Part shown: positions 41,300 through 60,147 of the stretch, in pieces | Layout of the letters: every line of letters begins with the position of its first letter | Position numbering within the stretch: position 1 is the first letter of the stretch | DNA from: Methanomicrobiales archaeon | Lineage (GTDB): Archaea; Halobacteriota; Methanomicrobia; Methanomicrobiales; Methanospirillaceae | DNA: 64,000 nt | Reading direction: 5' to 3' | NCBI GenBank assembly: GCA_025358115.1 | Contig: JANYKQ010000058.1 | Location: forward strand, 29,161-93,160 | Translations under genes and position numbers: made by a program | Notes under the pieces: model-generated | Databases searched by the model: none | Told to the model about the DNA's origin: nothing | Seen by the model: only the letters and a program-made list of their open reading frames with translations

Positions 41300-41959
41300 T
41301 TATGACTCTGTTTCCCCGCAGGATATGTCCCGGATAAATTCCAGCGCCTCAACCGCATCGTCTCTTTTCTGATCACACGAATGGGTATCAACCCATCCGA
41401 GGAACCGCTCGCGGGTTACCGAATCAACACTATTCCCTGAGCCGGCTACTATAGCCGGGTAGGTACGCTTAGGATAGAACAGGGACCGGGCCGAAACGAG
41501 CAGAGCATCATGTACAGCAGCATCGATAATGCCGGCCGCCATCGCCTTCTTTAAGGTAAACCGGATATTGATCAATGGTTCAGAGAGCGATATGCCGGAG
41601 ACCGGATCGAACACGAGCGCGACCTCATCATCGGCAATCAGTTCCCCGCTCTTGTACATCCGGTAAATCTCACCAATACCCACCATGCCAAGCGTATCCA
41701 TCTCTGCAGCCCGGAGGGCTCCCATGCTCGATGAGCCGATCACCCTTATGCCGCCTTTTACTGCCGCAAGGATCTCGCGATGGGCAACTGCCGATTCCTG
41801 ATGAAAAACGCCATCGATCAGGCCTATGATTGCCGCACCATCCCGTGCTGCTGCTATAAGATCGCCCCTTTTTGCCGGTGGCCGGTACTCAGCAGAGAGG
41901 ATCTGTTCCGCCGCCAGTACGTCAAGGCTTGGCCCGAGAAAGACGATGATCTTTGGCAT
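41300..41959 (-). CDS. tfuA: TfuA-like protein
   Basis: KIIVFLGPSLDVLAAEQIL, VIGSSSMGALRAAEMDTLGMVGIGEIYRMYKSGEL; overlaps the 3' end of ycaO. Confidence 0.93.
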   Translation of the reverse strand: MPKIIVFLGPSLDVLAAEQILSAEYRPPAKRGDLIAAARDGAAIIGLIDGVFHQESAVAHREILAAVKGGIRVIGSSSMGALRAAEMDTLGMVGIGEIYRMYKSGELIADDEVALVFDPVSGISLSEPLINIRFTLKKAMAAGIIDAAVHDALLVSARSLFYPKRTYPAIVAGSGNSVDSVTRERFLGWVDTHSCDQKRDDAVEALEFIRDISCGETES

Positions 41960-43133
41960 GTTTCACCCGCTCGCCCTTGCGTTCAAGGTCCATTGCAAAG
42001 ACTTCGAGCCCGGGGACAATGACCCGGACAACCGGGATCCCGATCTCTTCTCTTGTCAGGTCAACCACAATTACCCGGTCGAGTCCCTTCATCTCTAAGG
42101 TCGTGATGATATTATTGATGTCTTTTAAGAAATCATCGGTGTCGGATGAGGGAATATCTGCATAATCCACCGTCCCGTTGTCCCGGTACCAGTACCCGTT
42201 GATCCTTTTCGCCCGTTCGTAGCCCATCTTCTTACGGAGATCGGCGATCGTGGTGTCTTCCCGGGCCCCGTGGATCTGGGTGAGCCGGCTCTGGGCAACT
42301 TCGGTAAGAGCCCGCATCACGGCGATCCGTGCACTGGTGTGCGTCCCGATACCTATGGTAAGGAGACTGGGGTCTTTTAAGAGGACGTCATCAGCAACTG
42401 CGGCAATTGTCGGTATGCCGATGTCGCTGGTGATATCCCTGATCGTAACCTCGACCTGTGCATCGGCAAATTTCTTCTGCATGTCCTGGATCACCGGGTC
42501 ATCGATGCCTACAACTGCGGGACCGGTGTTGCGTGTGGTTTCGACCAGTGACCAGGCATCCCGTTCGATAACTTCGGAGAGGGCGTGGAATATCGCCTCT
42601 TCAAGGGTGTTTCCTGATGCAAGACCGTTTGAGTTCGTGCGGAATACTCCACGGTACCGGTGAGGAACCGGGTGGAAGACGGCAAAGGCCGGGACCCATA
42701 TCGTCTGGTTATTGGCGATATCGTATCCCTGGCACCAGGACATGAACCGGTCCATAGCTGCACCTTCCGGCAGGATCAGGTCCTCTGGATTGACAACGGG
42801 TTCGCGGCCTTCGAGCTCCTGGAAGAGTGCAACCCGGATCTCCCGGTCATGTACCTCTGCTGAATACCGTTCAATGCCTTCCATGATAGCTGATATCCTG
42901 GACTCTTCGACCGTAGCTCCCTTGCCATTGTACACGGTGATTGCACCGTCTTCAGCTGTCGGGCGGATGCAGGAGAAGACCGGTATGCCGATCCGGTCAA
43001 GGCTTGTGATATCTGCTACACGGGTGATGCCGGCTGCGGGAACTTTGGGTTCAATGCGGCGAAGTGTCTCTTCCAGCGGACTGGCCCGCTGCGTCTCATT
43101 GTTGTAGGTCTTCTTGCAGGAGTGGAGCTGCAT
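41922..43133 (-). CDS. ycaO: YcaO cyclodehydratase-family protein
   Basis: VYNGKGATVEESRISAIMEGIERYSAE, NGLASGNTLEEAIFHALSEVIERDAWSL, ARIAVMRALTEVAQSRLTQIHGARED. Confidence 0.95.
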   Translation of the reverse strand: MQLHSCKKTYNNETQRASPLEETLRRIEPKVPAAGITRVADITSLDRIGIPVFSCIRPTAEDGAITVYNGKGATVEESRISAIMEGIERYSAEVHDREIRVALFQELEGREPVVNPEDLILPEGAAMDRFMSWCQGYDIANNQTIWVPAFAVFHPVPHRYRGVFRTNSNGLASGNTLEEAIFHALSEVIERDAWSLVETTRNTGPAVVGIDDPVIQDMQKKFADAQVEVTIRDITSDIGIPTIAAVADDVLLKDPSLLTIGIGTHTSARIAVMRALTEVAQSRLTQIHGAREDTTIADLRKKMGYERAKRINGYWYRDNGTVDYADIPSSDTDDFLKDINNIITTLEMKGLDRVIVVDLTREEIGIPVVRVIVPGLEVFAMDLERKGERVKHAKDHRLSRAKP

Positions 43134-43932: not shown

Positions 43933-44166
43933 CAGGTATTGGGGATTTTTAAGGGTATGAGTTTTACTGAACCAATAATCCTCTGGATCAATGATACCAT
44001 TCCGAATCCGCCAGTATCTGCTGGATCCTGTATCTCCCCATGGGCGAAGTCTGCAAAAATCCCAAGAAATACCGGCATGAATCTCTTGTAGTCAAGATTT
44101 TTTTTCTACACGCTTTTTTGTCCGTATGCCATCATTTTTAAATATAACCATGATGAATTCCATCAC

Positions 44167-44859
44167 ATGACAGATCCCGGTTCATCGCATTCAGGGGCTG
44201 GCGGCGCAAAGAGCCACGTCCCTTCGCCGTTACTGGCAGATATGGAGAATGCCCTGATCTCGGTTGACCGGGCCAGAGCCGGCAGGATCGTCCGGGAATC
44301 CTGCACATCAGGTTCCCCGTTTATGTGCCTCGAAACACTGGTCGTTCCGGCACTCGAAGAAGTGGGCCGGCGCTGGGAAACCGGTGATGTTGCGCTGTCA
44401 CAGGTATACATGAGCGGGCGGATTTGTGAAGAGATTGTGGTTCTCATGCTCCCTGCCGGGGATCCGCGCCGCGTGGACCAGCCGAAGATGGCGATTGCGG
44501 TTCTCGAAGATCACCACACCCTTGGGAAACGGATTGTCCTATCAGTGCTCCGGGCCGGGGGGTTTGACGTGATCGATTATGGTCACGGCGTTTCAGTCGA
44601 CCAGCTCGTTGAAGGGGTAACCCGTGACAAAGTCATTATTCTCCTGATCTCCACCCTGATGCTCCCTGCCACTATCAGGACAAAAGAGGCGATTGCCCGG
44701 ATCAGGAAACTGCATCCGGAAACCAAAGTGATTGTCGGGGGGGCACCGTTTCTTTTTGACCCCCTGCTCTGGAAAGAGGTAGGGGCGGATGCGATGGGAC
44801 ATGCGGCATCCGACACTCTCTCTCTGGTAAAACAGATGGCGGGAGGTACGCAGAAATGA
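44167..44859 (+). CDS. B12-binding corrinoid protein (methyltransferase type)
   Basis: DHHTLG matches DxHxxG; VIVGGAPFLFDPLLWKEVGADAMGHAASDTLSL. Confidence 0.88.
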   Translation: MTDPGSSHSGAGGAKSHVPSPLLADMENALISVDRARAGRIVRESCTSGSPFMCLETLVVPALEEVGRRWETGDVALSQVYMSGRICEEIVVLMLPAGDPRRVDQPKMAIAVLEDHHTLGKRIVLSVLRAGGFDVIDYGHGVSVDQLVEGVTRDKVIILLISTLMLPATIRTKEAIARIRKLHPETKVIVGGAPFLFDPLLWKEVGADAMGHAASDTLSLVKQMAGGTQK

Positions 44860-45896
44860 CCTCATCCATGACCTCGCTCGAGCGCACGCTCACTGCTCTT
44901 GGCCAGAAAGAGCCGGACCGGGTCCCTCTCTTCCTCCTGACCACCATGCACGGGGCCAAAGAGCTCAGGATGTCCATCCGTGAATATTTCTCCAAAGCGG
45001 AGAATGTGATCAAAGGACAGGTCCTTCTCCAGAAAAAATACGAGAGCGACTGCTATTACCCGTTCTTCTATGCTTCTGCTGAAGTTGAAGCCTGGGGCGG
45101 GGATGTCATCTACATCGATGACGGGCCGGCGAATGCAGGACGCCCGATCATCCGGTCCCCGGAAGAGATTGAGTCCATCGAAGTGCCGGAAGTTGCTGAT
45201 TGTACCAGTCTTCGAAAGATAACCGGCTGCATACAGGGTCTGGTGGAGAAATCTGCCGGAAAGATCCCGGTCATCGGGGTCGTGATGTCCCCGTTCTCGG
45301 TCCCGGTGATGCAGATGGGTTTTGAAGCATACCTCGATCTGATCTACACCCGTCCCGAACTCTTCCGGACGCTGATGAAGAAGAACCAGCAGTTCTGTGC
45401 GGACTGGGCAAATGCTCAGCTGGAGGCCGGCGCGAACGCAATCTGCTATTTCGATCCGGTCTCATCCCCGACTATCGTTCCTCCTGAACTGTACCGGAAG
45501 ACCGGCCTTTTTGTGGCAAAAGAGACCATAGCCCGCATCAAAGGACCGACAGCCACCCATCTTGCGTCAGGCCGCTGCCTGCCAATCATCGACGATCTTG
45601 CAACCACCGGGACCGCCATTGTCGGTGTGAGTGTCCTTGAGGATATTGGTGAAGTAAAACGGGCCTCCAACTCACGGCTCACCGTGATGGGAAATCTGAA
45701 CGGGATTGCCATGCGGCACTGGACCCCTGCGGAAGCAGAGCGGATAGTCAGGGATACGATTGGAAAAGCCGGACGGGGGGGTGGTTTCATCCTCTCTGAT
45801 AATCACGGGGAGATCCCATTCCAGGTCCCCGAAAGCGTACTCCTTGCGATCAGCCGGGCTGTGAAGAAGTACGGAACGTATCCGCTGGACGGATGA
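44856..45896 (+). CDS. MtaA/uroporphyrinogen decarboxylase-family methylcobamide methyltransferase-like protein
   Basis: TSLERTLTALGQKEPDRVPLFLLTT, ICYFDPVSSPTIVPPELYRKTG, ATHLASGRCLPIIDDLATTG; 4-nt overlap with the corrinoid protein gene. Confidence 0.85.
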   Translation: MTSSMTSLERTLTALGQKEPDRVPLFLLTTMHGAKELRMSIREYFSKAENVIKGQVLLQKKYESDCYYPFFYASAEVEAWGGDVIYIDDGPANAGRPIIRSPEEIESIEVPEVADCTSLRKITGCIQGLVEKSAGKIPVIGVVMSPFSVPVMQMGFEAYLDLIYTRPELFRTLMKKNQQFCADWANAQLEAGANAICYFDPVSSPTIVPPELYRKTGLFVAKETIARIKGPTATHLASGRCLPIIDDLATTGTAIVGVSVLEDIGEVKRASNSRLTVMGNLNGIAMRHWTPAEAERIVRDTIGKAGRGGGFILSDNHGEIPFQVPESVLLAISRAVKKYGTYPLDG

Positions 45897-45899
45897 TCG

Positions 45900-48065
45900 A
45901 TGACGGATGCATTCGTCATCCTGTGCTGCGAGAATATCCGGCAGGAGGTCGACACAATTCTTGCTTTGGGGGTTCTGCCCCATGCAACGGTTCGTTCCTT
46001 CCCCTTTCACTGTGGCCATGTCCAGTCTGCCTGGAAAAAAGTCAGCGACCCGTACCTTGATCTCGAAAAAGGAGGAGCACGGATATTCCTCAGCGGATGC
46101 GGATGTTCCAACAAACTTGACGTACCCAAAGTTGTTTTGGAGGGTGCTTCCCTTATCTTCCATGGAGCCGGAGGATCACTTTTCCTGCCGGAGGATCAAC
46201 TCTCTCACTTCCAGAAGGATGGCGCATTGCTCATCCTGCCAGGTTGGCTCCTCCGCTGGAAGCAGAATGCTCAATGTGATGGATTGGATCCGGTAACCGC
46301 CCGACAGATGTATGCGGAATCGCTCAAAGAGATAATCCTTCTCGATACCGGTGTGTATCCTGGCATTGCGCCGGTGCTTGCGGAATTTTCAGAATTTACC
46401 GGTTTACCCGCCCGGACCGTCCCCTCCGGCATCGAATATTTCCGCCTCCTGTTGACGGTCCAGTACCTTCAATGGCAGTGTGAACAGGATGTGACCGGGT
46501 TCAGGACCCGGATCAGCACTTCTGAGAAGAGAGTGGCCGATTATTCGATGGTGGCAGACCTGACCGGAAAAATTATTGGTGTTCATGACGAAGAGACAGT
46601 CATCCGGCAGACCCTGGAGCTCGTAACCCTGCTCAGTTCGCCCTCACGGGCAGGATTTCTCATTATCAGGAATGACAAGCCAGGTGTCATTATCAGCACC
46701 CCCCCGGATGCTTACGCTTCGACCGCCCATTTCCAGCGAATTTTCGATCCCTCGTCCCCGTATCTCGTCCACGAGAAAGGCGATGGCTTTCTCTTCCCGG
46801 TGAAATACCACAACCGTCTCATTGGCATCCTTTCGGTCGATCAGGTATCCCTGCCGGAGAACCTGGATGAGTATCTCAATCTCACCCACTTCATCAGCCA
46901 GATTGCCGGTCTCTCCATTACGATTGCACGGACGCACCAGGATCTCGTGCAGACCGTGAACGAGAGGGACGCCGAGATTGCCGAGCGTGAAAAAGCGGAA
47001 CATGCGCTGAGGGAGAGCGAGGAGCGGTACCGCGGAATCATCGAGAATATCGAGGACGTCTTCTTCCGTTTCGATGGGGAAAACCGGATGGTCATGGCCA
47101 GCCCCTCGGTAATTTTCACGTTCAGGTATGATTCGGTTGAGGATATGCTCGGGATTCCCGTTCTCTCGATCTGGAAAAATCCTCAGGAGCGGCCACTGAT
47201 GCTGGAGGCCATGAAGCAGCACGGCGGAGTCGTGCGGGACTGGGAAGCGGAGTTCGTGAGAAAAGACGGCACGGTATTCTGGGGGTCGATCAGTGCCCAC
47301 CTGCACACAGATGAGCAGGGAACGTACCAGGGAACAGAGGGAATCATACGGGATATTACCGAGCGAAAGAAGACTGAAGATGCATTGAAAGCGGCCATCA
47401 AAAAACTGAACATGCTCTCCTCTATCACCCGGCATGATATCCTTAACCAGATCATGGGATTAAGGACATATCTTGAACTCTCCCGTGAGGATCTCAAAGG
47501 GACACGGTTCGCTGCATTTATTGAGAAAGAGGACCAGGCTGCCGAAGCAATCCAGCGACAGATCGAGTTTACAAAATATTACCATGATATCGGGGTCAAT
47601 GCACCGAAATGGCAGGATGTGGCAGCGGTCATCCATGAGGCAGCTGCGCAGCTCAACCTTTCGGCAATTGAAGTGCGGGTCACCGTCAAGGACATGGAAA
47701 TATTTGCAGATCCCCTCATCGAGAAAGTTTTCTTCAATCTTATGGAAAATTCCCTTCGTCACGGCGGGCGGGTGACCCGGATGGAGTTTTTGGCCCGCAC
47801 ATCAGAATCCGGGCTGTTCCTCTCCTATTGTGACAACGGGGAAGGGATCTCAGAAGAGGACAAGAAGAAACTTTTCCAGAAGGGGTTTGGCAAACATACC
47901 GGCCTTGGTCTCTTCCTCTCCCGCGAGATTCTCTCTATCACCGGCATCACGATTACCGAGTCCGGTGAACCCGGCAAAGGGGTGAGGTTCGAGATTCTCG
48001 TTCCGGAGGGTGGGTACAGGTCCGGCATGATCACCTCAGTCAAGGATCCTTTCGGGAAGGAGTAA
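45900..48065 (+). CDS. Sensor histidine kinase with N-terminal DUF1638-like domain plus GAF and PAS
   Basis: N-terminal ~200 aa FVILCCENIRQEVDTILALG...VRSFPFHCGHVQ...RIFLSGCGCSNKLDV (DUF1638-like); GAF; PAS SEERYRGIIENIEDVFFRFD; kinase SSITRHDILNQIMGLRTYLELS and ENSLRHGG / YCDNGEGI. Confidence 0.82.
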   Translation: MTDAFVILCCENIRQEVDTILALGVLPHATVRSFPFHCGHVQSAWKKVSDPYLDLEKGGARIFLSGCGCSNKLDVPKVVLEGASLIFHGAGGSLFLPEDQLSHFQKDGALLILPGWLLRWKQNAQCDGLDPVTARQMYAESLKEIILLDTGVYPGIAPVLAEFSEFTGLPARTVPSGIEYFRLLLTVQYLQWQCEQDVTGFRTRISTSEKRVADYSMVADLTGKIIGVHDEETVIRQTLELVTLLSSPSRAGFLIIRNDKPGVIISTPPDAYASTAHFQRIFDPSSPYLVHEKGDGFLFPVKYHNRLIGILSVDQVSLPENLDEYLNLTHFISQIAGLSITIARTHQDLVQTVNERDAEIAEREKAEHALRESEERYRGIIENIEDVFFRFDGENRMVMASPSVIFTFRYDSVEDMLGIPVLSIWKNPQERPLMLEAMKQHGGVVRDWEAEFVRKDGTVFWGSISAHLHTDEQGTYQGTEGIIRDITERKKTEDALKAAIKKLNMLSSITRHDILNQIMGLRTYLELSREDLKGTRFAAFIEKEDQAAEAIQRQIEFTKYYHDIGVNAPKWQDVAAVIHEAAAQLNLSAIEVRVTVKDMEIFADPLIEKVFFNLMENSLRHGGRVTRMEFLARTSESGLFLSYCDNGEGISEEDKKKLFQKGFGKHTGLGLFLSREILSITGITITESGEPGKGVRFEILVPEGGYRSGMITSVKDPFGKE

Positions 48066-49321: not shown

Positions 49322-49777
49322 ATGGCTGAAAAAACCGGCGAACCATTGCATATCCTGCTCGTCGAGGACAATGAGGCCCATGCCGAGCTCGTGATTCGCG
49401 GCATGCGTGACCAGCCGGTGGTAAACAGGATCCACCATGTGTCCGACGGCGGGAAGGCCCTCGACTATCTTTTCGGTCGGGGTGCATACGCAGATCCGGT
49501 CCAGAATCCCCGTCCGCATTTTGTTCTTCTCGATCTCCGGCTCCCCCGGGTTGACGGGCTTGAAGTTCTCCGGACGATTAAAACCACGCCGTCTCTCCTC
49601 CGTATCCCGGTGATCATCCTCACCAGTTCCGATGCTGAGGATGATATCGCGAAAGCGTATGATTACCATGCGAACAGCTATATTGTAAAACCCCTTGACT
49701 TCAAGACCTTGACAAAACTGGTAAAGGAGCTTGGGTTCTACTGGCTTGGCTGGAATGCAAAACCCCGGGGAGACTAA
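49322..49777 (+). CDS. Response regulator receiver protein (Rcp1-like)
   Basis: [19 protein letters not shown]...[21 protein letters not shown]...[32 protein letters not shown]. Confidence 0.93.
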
Positions 49778-49808
49778 ATCCCCGGAAGCTCCGGGACAGG
49801 TATGGGCA

Positions 49809-52800
49809 ATGGATATCGTTGCAGGAACAACCGTTTCTCACATTCTGATTGTTGAGGATGATCGCGGCCAGCAGGCTCTCGCTCTGCATGCTTTTTTGGA
49901 CTATCCTGAACAGTTCCGTGTGACCATTGCAGGAAATCTCCGTGATGCCCGGGACCTGATTGGAAGTGAATCTCCCGACTTGATTATTGCCGACTGGAAT
50001 CTCCCCGACGGGAAAGGAATCGATATCCTGCCCCGGAAGAATGGAATGGTGACAATTCCTCTTGTCATTATGACCGGTTACGGCGATGAACACCTTGCCG
50101 TTGAGATCATGAAATCCGGGGCACTCGATTACGTTGTCAAATCTGCAACAATGTTTGAGGATATGCCCCATATCGCCCGGCGTGCGCTCCGGGACTGGGA
50201 AAATCTCCACGGAAGAGAACTGGCTGAGGGGAAGGTACGGGATTATCAGAAGCGCCTGGCAGATATCCTCAGTTTTCTTCCGGATGCGGTGCTTGCCATT
50301 GATAACGAAGGCCGGGTGATCGCGTGGAACAATGCGATCGAACAGATGACCGGTGTAACCGCTGAAGCAATGCTCGGGAAAGGCGATCATGAGCACAGCA
50401 TCCCTTTTTACGGAGAGCGACGCCCTATCCTTATCGACCTGGTCCTGGAAGACGACCCGGAGATTGAAAAAAATTACCTGTTCCTGCAACGCGAGGGCCA
50501 GAAAATCATATCCGAAGTATCTGCCCCTTTGATGAATGGGGGCAGGGGTGCCTTTCTCTGGGCTACGGCTTCCCCCCTGTTCAACGATGCCGGGGAACGC
50601 ATCGGTGCAATCGAAGTGATACGGGATATTACCGAGCGGAAACAGAAAGAGGAATTGCTGCAACAGCGCGAGGCAATTTTAGAAACTCTCCTGAATGCCC
50701 CGAATGACACCATTGCACTACTCGATCGCCAGGGTATTATCATAGGAATGAACGATGAAGGTGCACGGCGACTCGGGGGAACTGTACAGGCGGTAACCGG
50801 GCGGTGTGTGTATGATCTTCTGCCCGCGGAAGTTTCCATGACCCGGAAGGAGTATGTAGACCGGGTTTTTGCAACGGGTAAACACTCCCAGCTGGACGAT
50901 GCCCGGTCCGGCATGTATCTCCATAATGAGTTCTTCCCTATTTTCAATTCAGATCATACGGCAGTAGACCGTGTAGCGATATTTGCCCGTGACATTACCT
51001 TTCAGAAACAGGCAGAACAAGCCCTGCAGGAGAGCGAGACCCGGTTTAAAGCCCTCATCCAGAATTCATCCGATATCATCCGGATTCTCAATCAGGATGG
51101 CCGGATCGTTTATGAATCACCTTCTTCTGAATGGATACTGGGCTACCCGCCGGGTTCCCTGATCGGCAGGGATCCCATGGAGTATGCCCACCCGGAGGAT
51201 CTGGCCAGGGTCAAAAATGATCTGCGGAACGTATATGACAAGACGAATACGGGAGTTCCGACTGAGTTCCGGATTCGCAAAGCCGATGGGGAATATCTCT
51301 GGGTTGACTCCATCGGCACAAACCTGCTGGACGTTGCAGGAGTAAACGGCATTGTTATAACAACCCGCCCCATCCAGCAACGAAAACATGCCGAGGAGCA
51401 GATGATCGCATCCCAGCGACTCTACGCCGTCCAGTCCCAGATCAGCCAGGCCATCGTCAGAATGAAAGACCTCGAGACTTTTGTTACCGATATCTGCCGG
51501 ATCCTGGTTGACTACGGTCATTTCCGTATGTCGTGGGTTGGACTGCTTGACCCCCGTCTGATGACCTACAACGCCATAGCACATGCAGGGCATGATGATG
51601 GGTATATCAGGTTGCTTGAGATCAGTTTAAACGATGACGAGAAAAGCCGGGGTCCGACCGGTACTGCTTTTAAGGAAAAGCATTACGATATCTGCAATGA
51701 TATCGAGACGGACTCCCGTATGGGGCCATGGCGGGATGAAGCACTGAAACGTGGCTATCATTCCTCGGCTGCATTCCCGTTCCGGCGTAATGGCGAAGTT
51801 GTCGGGGCATATACGATTTATGCGTCCGGGAAGAATTTTTTCAACGAGACAGAGATCGCCCTTCTCGAAGAGATAGCAATGAACATCTCGTTTGCCCTTG
51901 ATATGCTTGATGAACAGGAACAGCGCAAGCGGGTGGAGGAGGCACTCGCAGGCAGTGAGGAGCAGCTCCGCCTGGCCCTTGAAGGTGCCGATGCAGCCTT
52001 CTGGGACTGGCACCTCTCCACCGGCAAAGCAATTTTCAGTAACCGGTTCTATACCATGCTCGATTATGAACCCGGTGAATTCCCCGCAACCTATGATGCA
52101 TGGACAACCCTTATGCATCCTGATGAACGGGACAGGATCCTTAACGATCTCAAACGGCAGATCCAGGAGAAGCGCCCCCTCTGCGAGATCGAGTACCGGC
52201 TCAGGACAAAAGCGGGAGACTGGATCTGGATTCTTGGACGGGGAAAAATTGTTGAAACGGATGATCAGGGAAACCCTCTGCGTTTTACCGGTGTCAACAT
52301 CGACATCACTAACCAGATGCTCATGGAATCGGAAATTCGCTCCCTCAACACCGTCCTTGAACAGCGGGTCAGAGACCGTACAGAAGCCCTCTCAAAGGCA
52401 AACGAAGCCCTGGAGTCCGAGAATGCTCATCGTATGATGGCAGAGAAAAAACTCCAGTCTTCGTATGATGAAAAAGTGGTGCTCTTAAAAGAGATTCATC
52501 ACCGGGTCAAGAACAATCTCCAGATAATTGCCAGTCTCTTAAACCTCCAGTCCCGGTATATCTCGGATTCACAGACCCTTGCGGCAATCCGGGAAAGCCA
52601 GAACCGGGTCAAGGCGATGGCGCTGGTACATGAGAAATTGTACCGTGCTGACGACATCGCCCATATCAGTCTCCGGGAATATGTACGGTTTCTCGGCACC
52701 GGCCTTTTCCATTTCTACGATGCCCGGGCCCGGGAGATCTCGTTCCTGCTTGAGATTCACGATATCAATGTCGATATCGATGCCGCCATCCCCATTGGTC

Positions 52801-53090
52801 TCATCCTCAATGAATTGATCTCAAACTCGCTCAAATATGCATTTCCCGATGGAAAGAGAGGAGAAATTTTCATTGAAGTCAAAAAGGAAGGGCATACCTT
52901 AACTGTCCTCTTCCGGGACACGGGTGTTGGAATCCCTGCGGAAATGGACTGGAGAAACACCCCCTCTCTTGGCCTGCGACTGGTCATCACGCTTGTCGAC
53001 CAGATGAATGGTACCGTGGAGCTTGACCGGAGTTGTGGAACCATCTTTACCATGGTGCTGCATGAGAAGGAACAACGGAGCCCGGAATGA
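49809..53090 (+). CDS. Receiver-PAS-GAF-PAS histidine kinase (HisKA_2/HWE type)
   Basis: N-terminal [20 protein letters not shown] receiver; several PAS modules ending DITERK; C-terminal [27 protein letters not shown]; proposed ATG at 49809. Confidence 0.9.
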
Positions 53091-56000
53091 AAACCGCTGA
53101 TCTCTCCCCTTTACCGCTCACTGAACTCTGGTGGAAGGGTATTATCCTTTCGCTTTCAGGTGCAGTCACAATCATTGCTATCTGGTGCCTGACACATGGT
53201 ATTACAATTCTCTTTATGGATCTCTATTATTTCCCGATAGTCCTCCTTGTTTACCGTTACCGCTGGAAAGGCTGCGGTCTTGCCACCCTCCTTGCCTTTT
53301 CCTGTCTCACCCTTGTACTCGTTTTCTCAGGGGACCCGGCGGCTGTCTTTGTCGGGGCATTTTACCGGTTCTTGGTCTTTGCAGGAGTTGCAGTAGTCAT
53401 CACATATCTTTCTGAACGGCAAACAATTGCCAAAAACTCCAAGCAACAATTCGCCGAGATAAGGGACCGGTATCTCTCGCTCGCTCCGGCGATTATCCTT
53501 ATCCTTGACAGGAATGGGGTGATAACGTTCCTCAACCAGAAAGGCGGCAATATCCTCGAATCTCTGCCGGATGAGGTTGTCGGGTTGTCATGGGTGGACC
53601 AGTTCCTTCCGGAAAAAGCACGGGACCGTGCCAAACAGGCATTTTCCCAGATGATTGACGGCAAGGTCGAGCAAAACCGGATTCTCGAGATCCCGGTACT
53701 GACCAGCGCCGGTGTGGAGAAGATCATACGGTGGTATACCTCTGTCCTGCATGATGAGAACGGGAAAATTACCGGAACTCTGGGATTTGGCGAAGATATC
53801 ACAGCGGAGAAATGGGCGCAGGATTCCTTATGGAAGATGCAGCAGTTCCAGGAGAGTGTTATCGCAAATGCAAATGTCTGGATCACCGTGCTCGAACCTG
53901 ATGGCACCCTTCTTGTCTGGAATGATGCCGCCGAATCCATCAGCGGCTACAAAAAAACCGGAATCCTGGGAAAAAAAACCATCTGGAAAATGCTCTACCC
54001 GGAAAACGAATACCGGAAGGAAGTCTCCGGTGAGATCCGGCAGATCATCGGGCGGGACACGTTCCTTGAGAATTTTGAGACCGAGATCCGCTGCCTGGAC
54101 GGGACAAAAAAGACCATTGTCTGGAATACCCGGGGACTGCGGGATGATGTTGGGACCATCACGAGCTACATAACCATCGGGCGCGACATTACGGAACAGA
54201 AATCAGCCGAGTCCCGTGCCAGCGAGAGTCTACGTTTCCTTGCTACCATGATCAACACGCTCCCCATACCGGTCTTTTACAAGGATGTTGAAGGGAGGTA
54301 CCTTGGCTGCAATCCCCCGTTTGAAGAGTATCTCGGTATTGCCTTAGAAGATCTCAAGGGAAAAACAGCCTATGATATCTCGCCAAAGGATCTTGCGGAC
54401 AAATACACTACTGCTGATCAGCAGGTATTAGCCAATCCTGTTCCCCAGCGTTATGAGACGCAGGTGCAGTACGCGGATGGCTCCCGCCACGACGTTATCT
54501 TTTACAAAGCTTCGTTCCTCAATACAGATGGGTCTGTCGGGGGACTGATCGGCACCTTCCTAGATATCACGGAACGCAAACGGATGGAAGAGGCGCTTCT
54601 CGAGAGCGAGTCATTCAACCGTGGTCTCGTGGAGAACCTGCCCGAATATATTGCTGTTTATGGCATTGACGGGAAGCTGCTCTACGTGAACCCGGCCTCA
54701 GCGAAGGGACTTGGATATGATGCGGATGAACTGGTTGGCACGCATGTGCTCACGTATATCGCAGAGAAGTACCACGATATCGTAAAGGCCAAAATGGCTG
54801 CCCGCCGGGGTCCGGGTGACACGTCCCCATATGAGATCGATATGGTCACCAAGGACGGGCTCGTAAGAACGGTGATTGTAAAAGCAACACCGATCCAATA
54901 CCGGAACAATCCTGCAATCCTTCTCCTCCTCATTGATATCACGGACCGGAAAAAGGCTGATGAGGAAATTCGCAAGGGCAGTGAGGAGTGGCAGACGACT
55001 TTCGATGCGATTACCGATGTAGTCTTCCTCCTCGATGATATGGGGCATATCGTCAGGCACAATAAAGCGTTCGAAACCTTCACCGGAAAAAGTGCAACAG
55101 AGATTGATGGCAGACCTTGTTACGAACTTTTGCATGGATCTGTCTATCCTATTGCGGGCTGTCCGAATGTAAAAGCACAGGTAAGCCGGCAGCGTGAGAG
55201 CCTGGAACTCCCCATCCGAGACCGGTGGTTCATCGCTACCGTGGACCCTATCTTTGCAAAAAACGGGAGTGTCCGTGGTGCAGTGCACCTGATTGTTGAC
55301 ATCACCGAGCGCAAAGAAACGGAAGACAAACTTCGTGCGAGTGAGGAGAAATTCCGTGATATCTTCAATAATGTCAACGATGCTGTCGAAATACATGCAA
55401 TGGATGAACGCGGACTCCCGGGCAGATTCATTGATGTCAATGATGTAGCCTGCAGGATGCTCCAGTACAGCCGGGAGGAACTGCTGACCAGAAGCCCGAT
55501 CGATTTTGCAACAGATTACCATAACCGGTCTATCGATGTGATTGGCGAGGAACTCAGGATCCGTGGATACTCGACATTTGAGACCGGTCACCGGAGGAGG
55601 GACGGGACGATCATCCCGGTGGAGATTAATGCCCATGTTTCCACACTGCTTGGGCAAGTGGTCGTTGTTGCAGTTGTCCGCGATATCACGGAGCGCAAAC
55701 GGGTGGAGGAATCGCTCCGCGAGTCACGGCACCTCTTCGCAGATATCATCAGTTTCCTGCCGGATCCCACCTTTGTTATCGACAATGATGGCAAAGTGCT
55801 GGCATGGAACAAGGCGATCGAACAGCTCAGCGGGGTTCCGGCCCGCGATATTATTGGTAAAGGAGACTATGAATACAGCCTCTGGCAGTACGGAAAACGG
55901 CGCCCGGTCCTCATCGATCTTGTCCTTCACCCGGACCAGGATGCCGCCAGGATGGATTATGCCAATATCCAGTTGAGCGGACAGACCATAACTGCCCAGA

Positions 56001-57244
56001 TTGAGATCCCGCAGTATAACAGCAAGCGCAGGATTCCACTCTCGCTCGTTGCATCGCCTTTAATGGATGCCCAGGGGAGAATTACCGGAGCGATCGAGTC
56101 CCTGCGGGACATATCGGGTCTTAAGGAGGCAGAAGCTGAACTGGACCGGATGAACCGGAACCTTGAAAAAATCGTCAGGGACCGGACGCGGTTGCTGGAA
56201 GAAGAGATTATCCAGCGCAAACGAGCCGAAAATGATGTGCAGGCAGCGCTCGATTATACGCGGTCGGTTATCGAGGCGAACCCTGACCTCATTGTAGTCC
56301 TCGATGATAAAGGTACTATCCTGGACCTCAATGCCTCCGGTGAACTGCTGACCGGGATCTCAAAAGATAGGCTGATTGGAACCCCCTATTTCGGCTATCT
56401 AGTCGATGACGGCAAACTCATGGACTCCTTTTTAGCGCTTCTAAAGGAAGGCAGGCTTGAGGATTTTGTCCAGATACGAAACACCGACAATCACGTAACT
56501 CCCTTGTCTGTACATGCCACCGTTATACGGGGAAGTGAAGGCATCCGGGACCGGATCATCGTTTCTGCCCATGACATCACCCGCCAGAAAGAGGATGAAA
56601 AAGCTATCCGGGCGTCACTGGATGAAAAAGTCCTGCTCCTCAGAGAAGTCCATCACCGGGTGAAAAATAATCTCCAGATCATCATCAGTCTTGTTAATCT
56701 CCAGATGCGCCAGACCGAAGATCCCCTGGTAAAGCAGATCATGTCTGAGACGCAGAACCGTGTGCGGGCAATGTCCCTGGTCCATGAGAAACTCTATCGT
56801 TCCGAGAGCCTGTCCCGGATCGATTTTGCGGATTACTCCCGCTTCCTTGCAACGCAGCTCTTCTCGTATTATGGCATGGATTCTCAGAGGGTACATCTGG
56901 ATTTTACCATGGGCGAGATCATGGTAGATATCAATACTGCAGTCCCCCTCGGCCTGCTCATGAACGAGCTCATCTCCAATTCCCTCAAACATGCCTTTCC
57001 GCACGACCGTGAGGGGGTGATCAGTATCAGTGGCGGGGATGAGGGGGGTCTCATGACGCTGATTGTCCGGGATAATGGTATCGGGATTCCGGCAGAGTTT
57101 GACTGGAAGAACACTACTTCGCTGGGTATGCGCCTCGTGACCAGTCTCATCGACCAGGTCGACGGGACCGTCACGCTCGACCGTAAAGGGGGAACAACAT
57201 TTACCATTACGCTCAGAAGAAAGCCCGCCTCCGGGGTTGCGTGA
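53087..57244 (+). CDS. Membrane multi-PAS histidine kinase (HisKA_2/HWE type)
   Basis: N-terminal TM segments; repeated PAS modules; C-terminal [26 protein letters not shown] and [13 protein letters not shown]; 4-nt overlap with the upstream kinase. Confidence 0.92.
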
Positions 57245-57473
57245 TGTCCGGTATAAAAAATATCACCTCAGCAATCTGACAGGAGTTATCCGTCCTTTGA
57301 CAAGGGAAGCGGACAAACTCATACCGGGAAGAAGTGATCCGTACTCTCGGTCATCTCTCACCAACTTTCCCGTAATTTTTTTTGTCCATTGACTCTCACC
57401 GGGCAGATTTTTTTGAACAACATTTATAATGCTGTATAATGATTCATTGACGTAATCAAAAGGAAACTGCTCC

Positions 57474-58526
57474 ATGTCACAGGCATCCATCTTCATTGTC
57501 GAAGATGAACTCATTGAAGCTGAAGATATCCGTCAGACCCTGGAAAAACAGGGATATACGGTAGCCGGGTCTGCACGGTCAGGCGAGTCTGTGCTGGAAC
57601 TCTTAACAACGATCCATCCCGATCTGGTGCTGATGGATATCCACCTCGCGGGTATACTGGACGGCATTGATACAGCCGGAAAGATACGGAATCTGTATCA
57701 TCTCCCGGTCATCTTTCTCACCGCATATGCAGATGAGATCACTCTCGGCCGGGCAAAGTACACCGAGCCATACGGCTATGTCCTCAAACCCTTTGATGAG
57801 CGTGAACTGCATTCAGCCATCGAGATGGCTCTCTATAAACACCGGATGGAGGAGCGGTCAAAAGAGAATGAGCGCACGATTCGCATCCTTGCCAATGCCA
57901 TACCCGACGCGGTCATGCTCTTAGATAAAGACCGGAACATCATAAGCCAGAATGATGCCATGGCACGCCGGCTCGGTCTTGATTATACACGGTCACAGCA
58001 GGGTTGTGCGTGTCCGTTTGACCAGAACGGGATGTTTCCTTCACTGGAATTAAAGATACAGGAAATTACCAGTTCCGGCCGGCCCATCCGCTTCGAGGAG
58101 AAGAGCGGGAATGAATGGTTTGAGATATCCCTTATCCTTATTCCCGGATTGGAGGGACGAAATCCCCGGATTTTTGTCCAGTTTCACGATATCACTGCGT
58201 ATAAGAGATTTGAGGAGCAGTTGAAAAAGGAGGGGATCACCCGGATTGAGCATAACATGGAACAGTTCCAGATCTTAAACGACCAGATCAGGAACCCTCT
58301 CCAGGCGATAATGGGCTATGTAAATCTCGACTGTGTTCATTACCGGGATCGTATCCTCGAACAGATCGGGCTTATCAACAACCTTGTTTCCCGCCTTGAT
58401 CAGGGCTGGGTGGAATCGGATAAGGTGAGACGTTTCCTGCTCGTCCGTTACCGGTCTGCATCTGATGATTTTGCGCCCGATGATGTGTCTGTTCCATCGC
58501 CAGGAGAAAAGTCCAAAGGAGTCTGA
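57474..58526 (+). CDS. Response regulator with PAS domain and degenerate kinase-like C-terminus
   Basis: Receiver IFIVEDELIEAEDIRQTL...LVLMDIHLAG; PAS; C-terminal RIEHNMEQFQILNDQIRNPLQAIMGYVNLD with no HATPase domain. Confidence 0.88.
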   Translation: MSQASIFIVEDELIEAEDIRQTLEKQGYTVAGSARSGESVLELLTTIHPDLVLMDIHLAGILDGIDTAGKIRNLYHLPVIFLTAYADEITLGRAKYTEPYGYVLKPFDERELHSAIEMALYKHRMEERSKENERTIRILANAIPDAVMLLDKDRNIISQNDAMARRLGLDYTRSQQGCACPFDQNGMFPSLELKIQEITSSGRPIRFEEKSGNEWFEISLILIPGLEGRNPRIFVQFHDITAYKRFEEQLKKEGITRIEHNMEQFQILNDQIRNPLQAIMGYVNLDCVHYRDRILEQIGLINNLVSRLDQGWVESDKVRRFLLVRYRSASDDFAPDDVSVPSPGEKSKGV

Positions 58527-58528
58527 AG

Positions 58529-59131
58529 ATGTACACCGTCCTGATTGTGGATGACGATCCCGCAATACGGGAAATATTCACCATATATCTCGAGATGCGT
58601 GCATACCGGGTTCTCACGGCAGCCGGTGGGAGGGAGTGCCTGGACCTGTTGAATACGCAAATACCTGATCTCATCCTGCTGGATATGATGATGGAACCCA
58701 TGGACGGATGGGAAACCCTCCTTGCAATCCGCTCCAGGTCTGCTTCCCGTGCAATTCCCGTGATAATTATTACCGGAAAGGAGGCAACGCCCGAAGAAAT
58801 TCTGCAGTATGGTATTCTCATTGAGGATTTCATTGTAAAACCCGTTGATTTCAAACGAATATCTGCATCCTTCCATCTCATTATTGAGAAAGACCAGGTC
58901 CTGAGACGTGAAATCGAACGGATTAAGGAAACGGAGCAGGATCCGGAATTACCGGGTGAATATACTCATCTTCTCCGCCTTGTCAGGGTAGCAAAAAACC
59001 TCATGGCCCGGTCCAGGGACCGCCCCTGGGCGGATCAGATTCCGTTGAAAAAACACGAGGAACGACTGCAATGGCTGCACAAAAAACTGGGGTTTCCTGA
59101 CCTCCTGCTGCAGCGGGATGAAATCGAATGA
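58529..59131 (+). CDS. Response regulator receiver protein
   Basis: TVLIVDDDPAIREIFTIYLEMRAYRVLTAAGGRECLDLL...LILLDMMMEPMDGWETLLAI. Confidence 0.92.
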   Translation: MYTVLIVDDDPAIREIFTIYLEMRAYRVLTAAGGRECLDLLNTQIPDLILLDMMMEPMDGWETLLAIRSRSASRAIPVIIITGKEATPEEILQYGILIEDFIVKPVDFKRISASFHLIIEKDQVLRREIERIKETEQDPELPGEYTHLLRLVRVAKNLMARSRDRPWADQIPLKKHEERLQWLHKKLGFPDLLLQRDEIE

Positions 59132-59214
59132 CAGATCCTGCCTTGACGACCGCTGCATTTTTTGGTAAATGCGAGTATCATGATGATAAGAAGATCTACT
59201 AATTATCCGGGTGC

Positions 59215-60147
59215 ATGATGGAAAAACGGGCAATACTCATCGTGGAAGATGAAGCGATTGTAGCCAATGATATAAAGGAGACTTTAACCGGCCTGGGATA
59301 CGAGGTTGTGGGCATTGCGAAATCCGGGGAGCTCGCGCTGGAAAAGGTAAAAGAATTCAGCCCCGATCTCGTGCTCATGGATATTCACCTCGCCACGAAT
59401 ATGGACGGGGTTGAGACCGCAGGAAAAATTCGCATACTCTTTGATATCCCCGTTATCTATCTCACCGCATATGCAGACAAGGAGCTGCTCGACCGGGCCA
59501 AAGTGACCGAACCGTACGGGTACGTTCTCAAACCCTATGATGAGCGGGAACTCCACTCGGTTATCGAGATGGCCCTGTACAAGCACCGGATCGAGCGGGA
59601 GATAAAAAAACGGGATGCGATCCTCTTTGCCGTGAGTTCCGCTGTTGAATGGCTGCTCCGTATCTCCCGAGCGAAATCCAAGGCACCCCGCGATTTCGAT
59701 CCTTCGGATATCCGGGATATTCTCGAACCCATCGGCCTTGCACTCGATGCCGGCGCAATCGGAATCTTCAAAGAGAGTATTGATCCTGATGGTTTGCTGA
59801 AGGTCAGTATGGTCTATGACTGGGGATCCCCTGTCTATCATCCCGGCCTCTTCAAACCCGAATTGAAGCAGTTCACCTACCAGGCTTTCAATATTAACCG
59901 CTGGCATGACCTGCTGGTGAAAGGTGAGGTTGTACCGGCCACCCCGTCAGATCTTTTTGCTGAGGAGAAACTCCTCTTCACATTGCTCGGCGTTAAATCC
60001 GGGCTAATCCTTCCTGTTTTCATCTGTGACAGGTTCTGGGGTTTCATCGGCTTTTTCGATCTTGAAGAACGGGTACGATCCCCGGATGAGGTGGAAGCAT
60101 TGCGCATTACTGCAAACCTGCTTGGAGCTGCACTGGGATACCGGTAA
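59215..60147 (+). CDS. Response regulator with C-terminal GAF-like domain
   Basis: ILIVEDEAIVANDIKETLTGLGYEVVGIA...LVLMDIHLATNMDGVETAGKI; C-terminal FTLLGVKSGLILPVFICDRFWGFIGFFD. Confidence 0.9.
   Translation: MMEKRAILIVEDEAIVANDIKETLTGLGYEVVGIAKSGELALEKVKEFSPDLVLMDIHLATNMDGVETAGKIRILFDIPVIYLTAYADKELLDRAKVTEPYGYVLKPYDERELHSVIEMALYKHRIEREIKKRDAILFAVSSAVEWLLRISRAKSKAPRDFDPSDIRDILEPIGLALDAGAIGIFKESIDPDGLLKVSMVYDWGSPVYHPGLFKPELKQFTYQAFNINRWHDLLVKGEVVPATPSDLFAEEKLLFTLLGVKSGLILPVFICDRFWGFIGFFDLEERVRSPDEVEALRITANLLGAALGYR

Follow-up and report, generated by a model that had tools for sequence, protein, structure and literature searches.

The mec cassette of anaerobic dichloromethane degraders encodes the histidine kinase MecA with a PocR domain, the corrinoid protein MecB, the methyltransferase I (MTI) MecC and the response regulator MecD (PMC9768040, PMC10344839). 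Here we describe a comparable arrangement in a 64,000-nucleotide (nt) stretch of DNA (the window; contig JANYKQ010000058.1, positions 29,161 to 93,160) from a metagenome-assembled genome of a Methanomicrobiales methanogen that is 70% complete (denoted G000), in which genes for a corrinoid protein, a UroD-superfamily methyltransferase-like protein (MT) and a histidine kinase with a DUF1638-like input domain follow one another. Our comparative analyses suggest that this three-gene module is probably a sensor for one-carbon (C1) or methyl compounds, in which the state of the corrinoid would be read by the kinase; a sensory role as such is well supported. As in the mec cassette, a histidine kinase, a corrinoid protein and a UroD-superfamily methyltransferase (PMC13222342) adjoin one another, mec having a response regulator in addition. 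Compared by description, however, the mec cassette is catabolic and also encodes MecE, MecF and MecI and usually the MecGH reactivation proteins, and its kinase carries a PocR domain rather than DUF1638; Pfam matched no PocR domain in the window kinase.

Several other known systems resemble parts of the module. It shares the URO-D fold and the corrinoid domain architecture with MtaA/MtbA and MtaC/MtbC/MttC; unlike MtaA/MtbA, however, the module MT lacks the HxC...Cys zinc site and falls far below the family cut-offs, and a coenzyme M (CoM) methyltransferase function is not implied. CarH and the photocobilins, which respond to light through B12, likewise signal through a protein with B12-binding_2 and B12-binding domains but have no methyltransferase partner. 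The zinc-free MTIs CdmB and Moorella O-demethylase (PMC13222342) also belong to the URO-D superfamily, act with a corrinoid partner and illustrate that zinc can be absent; as described, however, they demethylate chloromethane or methoxy-aromatics together with a methyltransferase II (MTII), and DUF1638 kinases have not been reported for them. Finally, the input domain is homologous to the RamA-linked standalone DUF1638 proteins of P. inhibens, R. pomeroyi and the archaeal locus L163, with Cys, PxWxxxW and Thr positions in common, but it has fewer residues, shares no more than about 20% identity with them and is part of a histidine kinase. Two-component systems are a known kind, as are UroD methyltransferases and B12 sensors; their combination is potentially a new receptor type. 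No prior description of it, and no account of DUF1638 involving kinases, was found in the open-access literature searched, and a 2018 census of archaeal two-component systems mentions neither corrinoid nor DUF1638.

The features of the module, annotated with Pfam and TIGR/NF family profiles (loci are coded L and genomes G, each with three digits), are as follows (aa, amino acids; pLDDT, predicted local distance difference test):

44167-44859, + strand: corrinoid protein, 230 aa, with a B12-binding_2 cap (PF02607) and a B12-binding domain (PF02310), above cut-off
44856-45896, + strand: UroD-superfamily methyltransferase-like protein (MT), 346 aa, PF01208, without the MtaA zinc ligands
45900-48065, + strand: histidine kinase, 721 aa, with Pfam PAS and HATPase_c
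45900..46508, + strand: DUF1638-like input domain, kinase aa 1-203, with a long helix at its end (profile comparisons; AlphaFold2 pLDDT 92)
46509..46970, + strand: linker region, possibly GAF-like, kinase aa ~204-357, conserved in alignment A3, without a Pfam match
47010..47387, + strand: PAS domain, kinase aa 371-496 (TIGR00229, Pfam PAS)
47427..48065, + strand: archaeal-type histidine kinase core (PF02518) with H-box TRHDILNQ (H512), N613/N617, D645xGxG and G668/G670

The corrinoid and MT genes overlap by 4 nt and a gap of 3 nt separates the MT and kinase genes, in exact agreement with the initial annotation, which had proposed one apparent operon; the three genes are predicted to form a single transcription unit. 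This type of input domain is present in 27 of 232 Methanomicrobia genomes, and a profile of it built from 26 relatives (A4) detected it in a second class as well. The order corrinoid protein, MT, DUF1638-kinase occurs at 39 archaeal loci in two classes, including the window (37 intact, L059 cut by a contig end and L150 with a split kinase), and 4-nt overlaps between the module genes are usual. Thus, the search for this operon elsewhere that had been proposed as a check found it at 38 other archaeal loci and on a single bacterial plasmid, and chance adjacency of the three genes can be ruled out by the conservation of their order. In L150 (4518-6405, - strand; complete genome G285), the DUF1638 domain (215 aa) and the kinase (375 aa) lie in separate open reading frames, reflecting either a frameshift or a natural split, and the MT of L053 is truncated. 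When 324 genomes were searched with an MT profile, 24 of them gave a single match each at E<=1e-45; 23 of these matches reached about 1e-150 or better, and the remaining one 7e-48. By these scores the MT family has sharp limits. A histidine kinase follows the MT in all 24 loci inspected; three of these kinases have no recognisable DUF1638 (L194 and L195, with an unrecognised N-terminus, and L196, with no DUF1638).

Membership of the MT in the UroD superfamily is clear from its match to PF01208 (177.9 bits, profile positions 2-346 of 346), and its AlphaFold2 model (pLDDT 91) is most similar in the Protein Data Bank (PDB) to 4ay7, an MtaA structure (template modelling score 0.86, Foldseek E 2.5e-20, 18% identity). 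It nevertheless scores far below the MtaA/MtbA family cut-offs, with 98.4 versus 235.4 bits for TIGR01463 (MtaA/CmuA) and 84.6 versus 400 for NF040654. The zinc ligands of MtaA, which we take to be the HxC...Cys residues, are not retained: in alignment A1 and by comparison with MtaA/MtbA relatives, both Cys are replaced in the window MT (A237, H317), and module MTs read HLA(S)/xxA(S) and DNH where MtaA, represented by plus-strand loci only, has HIC and (P)GC. All 25 archaeal MT sequences compared have these Ala, Ser and His residues. Because the zinc site is gone and the scores are below cut-off, an identity as MtaA-type CoM methyltransferase was rejected, and the earlier label "MtaA-like" holds for the superfamily and fails for the MtaA family. 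As the UroD superfamily includes zinc-free substrate:corrinoid methyltransferases (PMC13222342), the MT more likely acts on the substrate side itself or serves as a receptor without catalysis. Its pocket residues are conserved (alignment A1), and it is the most conserved part of the module (median identity 54%), the DUF1638 domain being the least (21%). No close relative of the MT was found in phages. The MT gene of genome G305 (L195 5667-6704, - strand) contains an in-frame TAG at codon 80, where its near relative in G242 has a conserved Trp80 (TGG); this may be either an amber mutation or a site of pyrrolysine read-through.

No obvious destination for a methyl group was found. Neither MtaB nor MttB was detected in any of 16 tested Methanomicrobia genomes carrying the module, with the window genome (70% complete) among those lacking both; MtaB together with MttB is present in G352 (subfamily f8), and MtaB in G130, a genome without the module. 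Judged by MTII and RamA within the locus and by MtaB and MttB in those 16 genomes, the module is not part of a full methylotrophic system of MTI, corrinoid protein, MTII and activator; one located elsewhere in the same genomes was considered and rejected on the missing MtaB and MttB, the window genome being 70% complete. The initial annotation had stated that no substrate methyltransferase is seen. This stands for MtaB and MttB in the incomplete window genome; the absence of any such enzyme is not established, because the MT may itself be a substrate-side UroD enzyme. The sole TIGR01463-like (MtaA/CmuA-like) gene in both the window genome and the complete genome G120 is the module MT, and no other MtaA/MtbA-type CoM methyltransferase was found in either, the former being 70% complete. 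The module loci show no recurrent gene for an MTII, RamA, a transporter or a second substrate enzyme. Most genomes encode RACo/RamA-type proteins, but of 27 genomes with the module or the kinase, six, including the complete G120, yielded none.

These findings bear directly on the main rival explanation, namely a demethylase under regulation that would resemble the mec cassette, in which the corrinoid and UroD proteins would act as a catabolic or co-metabolic MTI-type unit (like MtvB/OdmB/MtoB/CdmB) feeding a distant acceptor, with the kinase as a dedicated regulator of its expression. Such a system is made conceivable by the zinc-free MTIs of the UroD superfamily (PMC13222342), by the strikingly similar mec gene order of histidine kinase, corrinoid protein, MTI and response regulator (PMC9768040), by the conservation of the DxHxxG motif and the pocket residues and by the RamA-like genes of most genomes. 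However, it would leave unexplained why none of the expected accessory genes recurs in the loci, why G000 and G120 have no other MtaA/MtbA-like gene and the complete G120 no detectable RACo-domain protein, and why a corrinoid-associated DUF1638 domain sits on a kinase with which the MT is always paired. We regard this explanation as unlikely.

With the Pfam profile PF07796 alone, the input domain of the window kinase scores 22.9-23.2 bits (residues 105-183) and misses the gathering score of 27; one relative (in G205) exceeds it with 28 bits, and PF07796 matches 12 of 27 aligned kinases at E<=0.01. The A4 profile matches the standalone DUF1638 protein of G531 with an E of 8.9e-16 (4.8e-36 for PF07796 itself), and hhalign of A4 against an alignment of 13 standalone DUF1638 proteins (A6) gave a probability of 97.1% and an E of 5.4e-11 over 184 columns, indicative of homology along the whole domain. 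The residues conserved in DUF1638 (Cys9, Glu15, GxC, PxWxxxW and Thr205 in A6 numbering) have their equivalents in the window domain (C10, E16, GCGC 66-69, P114-W116-W120 and T150). By these comparisons the kinase N-terminus is a diverged DUF1638-like domain and not a full family member: the DUF1638-like call made for its first ~200 aa is sub-threshold in the proposed profile check alone and is confirmed profile against profile. The AlphaFold2 model is a confident alpha/beta structure with its long helix pointing to the kinase. Foldseek revealed no clear PDB relative (best E 1.4e-3, with a root-mean-square deviation of 14.6 Å), and a VIA fold search gave tied, unspecific racemase/LacI-like and Rossmann-like matches (Z<=7.8).

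DUF1638 has been tied to corrinoid reactivation genetically and proteomically (PMC5764234, PMC12478193), and its link to RamA is known in bacteria (PMC5764234). A similar link was observed in the Methanomicrobia genome G130, where a REC gene, MtaC, MtaB, a RamA-like protein and a standalone DUF1638 protein are encoded consecutively in an operon (L163 891-6213), probably a methanol-activating operon in a mostly hydrogenotrophic family. From this link, and because most module loci have no adjacent response regulator, it could be proposed that the DUF1638-kinase is a regulated, RamA-independent reactivase that controls corrinoid reactivation rather than signalling to a response regulator. We consider this very improbable: the histidine kinase core is complete, with His512 and the ATP site conserved, the kinase has no Fe-S or ASKHA reactivation domain, and in two related loci the kinase has no recognisable DUF1638 while in a third it lacks DUF1638.

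In every relative spanning them, H512, N613, N617, D645, G647, G649, G668 and G670 are retained, as expected of a two-component kinase, and a search of the genome contigs with the whole kinase protein gave generic kinase-core matches only. Kinase and REC genes are the commonest neighbours of the module (25 loci). In L049 the gene immediately upstream of the module encodes a REC-MetOD2 response regulator (Pfam run on L049), L050 being alike, and the window encodes a REC-only protein at 49322. In L058 (1258-4553), genes for a methyl-accepting chemotaxis protein and CheW are located directly upstream on the same strand, a hint of a chemotaxis link in that species.

The window corrinoid protein has the architecture of a methyltransferase corrinoid protein, with the cap and the B12 domain above cut-off, and the DxHxxG motif noted initially is present as EDHHTLG (D115, H117, G120), invariant in 25 sequences; its score for TIGR02370 is below cut-off (77.9 versus 215.3). 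The genome's sole other B12-binding_2 protein (356 aa; L069 4996-7238, contig C85) has ELHEVG in place of DxHxxG, and its gene overlaps that of a 391-aa histidine kinase by 4 nt, forming a B12-protein/kinase pair without a methyltransferase. This second pair, the connection of DUF1638 with reactivation of the corrinoid cofactor (PMC5764234) and the lost zinc ligands would all be compatible with a sensor of corrinoid redox state (Co(II) versus Co(I)) or of B12 availability, the UroD protein having either a structural part or that of a ligand receptor without catalytic activity. However, the MT is the best conserved component and has kept its pocket residues, which points to a protein with a specific ligand more than to a scaffold, and we hold this alternative to be improbable.

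A tblastn search against plasmids revealed the bacterial form of the module, represented by one record, in the betaproteobacterium Azoarcus sp. KH32C (plasmid pAZKH). Its MT is 60.5% identical to that of the window, its corrinoid protein gene (motif DNHMLG) overlaps the MT gene by 4 nt, and its DUF1638-kinase (590 aa) is matched by the A4 profile at E 1.4e-37 and by PF07796 at E 1e-4; the locus also encodes a REC-HisKA-HATPase-REC hybrid kinase. On one side of the module lie the formaldehyde-oxidation genes fae/fhcABCD and on the other a pyrroloquinoline quinone (PQQ) methanol dehydrogenase cluster; RuBisCO genes and pterin-cofactor genes are close by. This context suggests methanol as a candidate ligand. 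Methyl-tetrahydromethanopterin was also considered, since this carrier is common to methanogens and the Azoarcus island, and is disfavoured because the bacterial tetrahydromethanopterin route has, to our knowledge, no methyl-level intermediate. On the other hand, the zinc-free UroD sites reported so far serve methoxy-aromatic or halide demethylation (PMC13222342).

Taken together, a sensor is favoured by the exclusive pairing of the MT with a kinase and its loss of the CoM-methyltransferase zinc site, by the missing methyl sink, by an input domain of a corrinoid-associated type and by the C1 island around the Azoarcus copy, in line with the initial proposal of a sensory rather than catabolic unit; neither an N-terminus unlike DUF1638 nor a full methylotrophic operon using these genes, the two outcomes named beforehand as speaking against that proposal, was encountered. 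In such a sensor, the UroD protein would bind a C1 or methylated compound and probably use its methyl group to methylate the cob(I)alamin that the corrinoid protein carries. Because no acceptor enzyme (MtaA/MtbA or MTII) is encoded with the module and none was found in G000 or the complete G120, the corrinoid would stay in its methyl-Co(III) or otherwise altered state, and this state would be the signal. The input domain, a relative of proteins that accompany RamA in corrinoid reactivation, would dock on the corrinoid protein and relay its state via the linker/PAS region to the kinase, and the kinase would in turn phosphorylate receiver proteins controlling C1 or energy metabolism. The complex between the proteins, the methyl transfer and the phosphotransfer, which ligand is bound, in which direction the kinase responds and which regulator it acts on are all inferred.

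Several observations weigh against a sensor. The model is built on sequence and predicted structure. As DxHxxG and the MT pocket are conserved, the pair may be metabolically active and the kinase merely its regulator, and the RamA-like genes of most genomes possibly provide corrinoid turnover. No response regulator is consistently adjacent across the module loci, three loci (L067, L145 and L146) harbor orphan DUF1638-kinases without corrinoid or MT genes nearby, and the conserved DUF1638 Cys (C10) is replaced in the f8 subfamily. The correlation between the distance matrices of the module parts (r 0.55-0.89) is what joint inheritance would give and speaks for one unit, but shared descent would explain it too.

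More broadly, and only tentatively, the module may represent a receptor type common to archaea and bacteria in which sensing is itself enzymatic methyl transfer: a zinc-free UroD enzyme would methylate a B12 protein, and a DUF1638-histidine kinase would read the methyl-corrinoid and control C1 metabolism (methanogenesis in the archaea, methanol oxidation in Azoarcus). Archaeal C1 sensing is in this way linked to a proteobacterial methanol-oxidation island, and for DUF1638 there is now a second context, one in which docking to corrinoid proteins is implied. Methanogens have many histidine kinases, and for one kinase family the module offers a concrete, testable input consisting of two soluble proteins and a visible cofactor. 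Found in methanogens without MtaB or MttB, it may monitor methyl compounds not known as their food.

A putative promoter precedes the module, 20-32 nt 5' of the first start codon:

44135..44147, + strand: TATA-box-like element TTTTTAAATATAA, read directly

The position of TTTTTAAATATAA would be consistent with a near-leaderless transcript. Upstream of the module, the opposite strand carries an MBL-fold gene as well as a YcaO/TfuA pair (41300-43133, - strand). The two genes of this pair, for TfuA and for YcaO (methanogenesis marker 1), overlap, and the pair is annotated for McrA glycine thioamidation. Downstream, a histone-deacetylase-family gene and a GNAT gene are followed by a series of REC and kinase genes, and the region from 49322 to 60147 (+ strand) constitutes a signalling island, in which the genes for the REC-only protein, for two multi-PAS HisKA_2 kinases of very large size and for three more REC proteins lie in a row.

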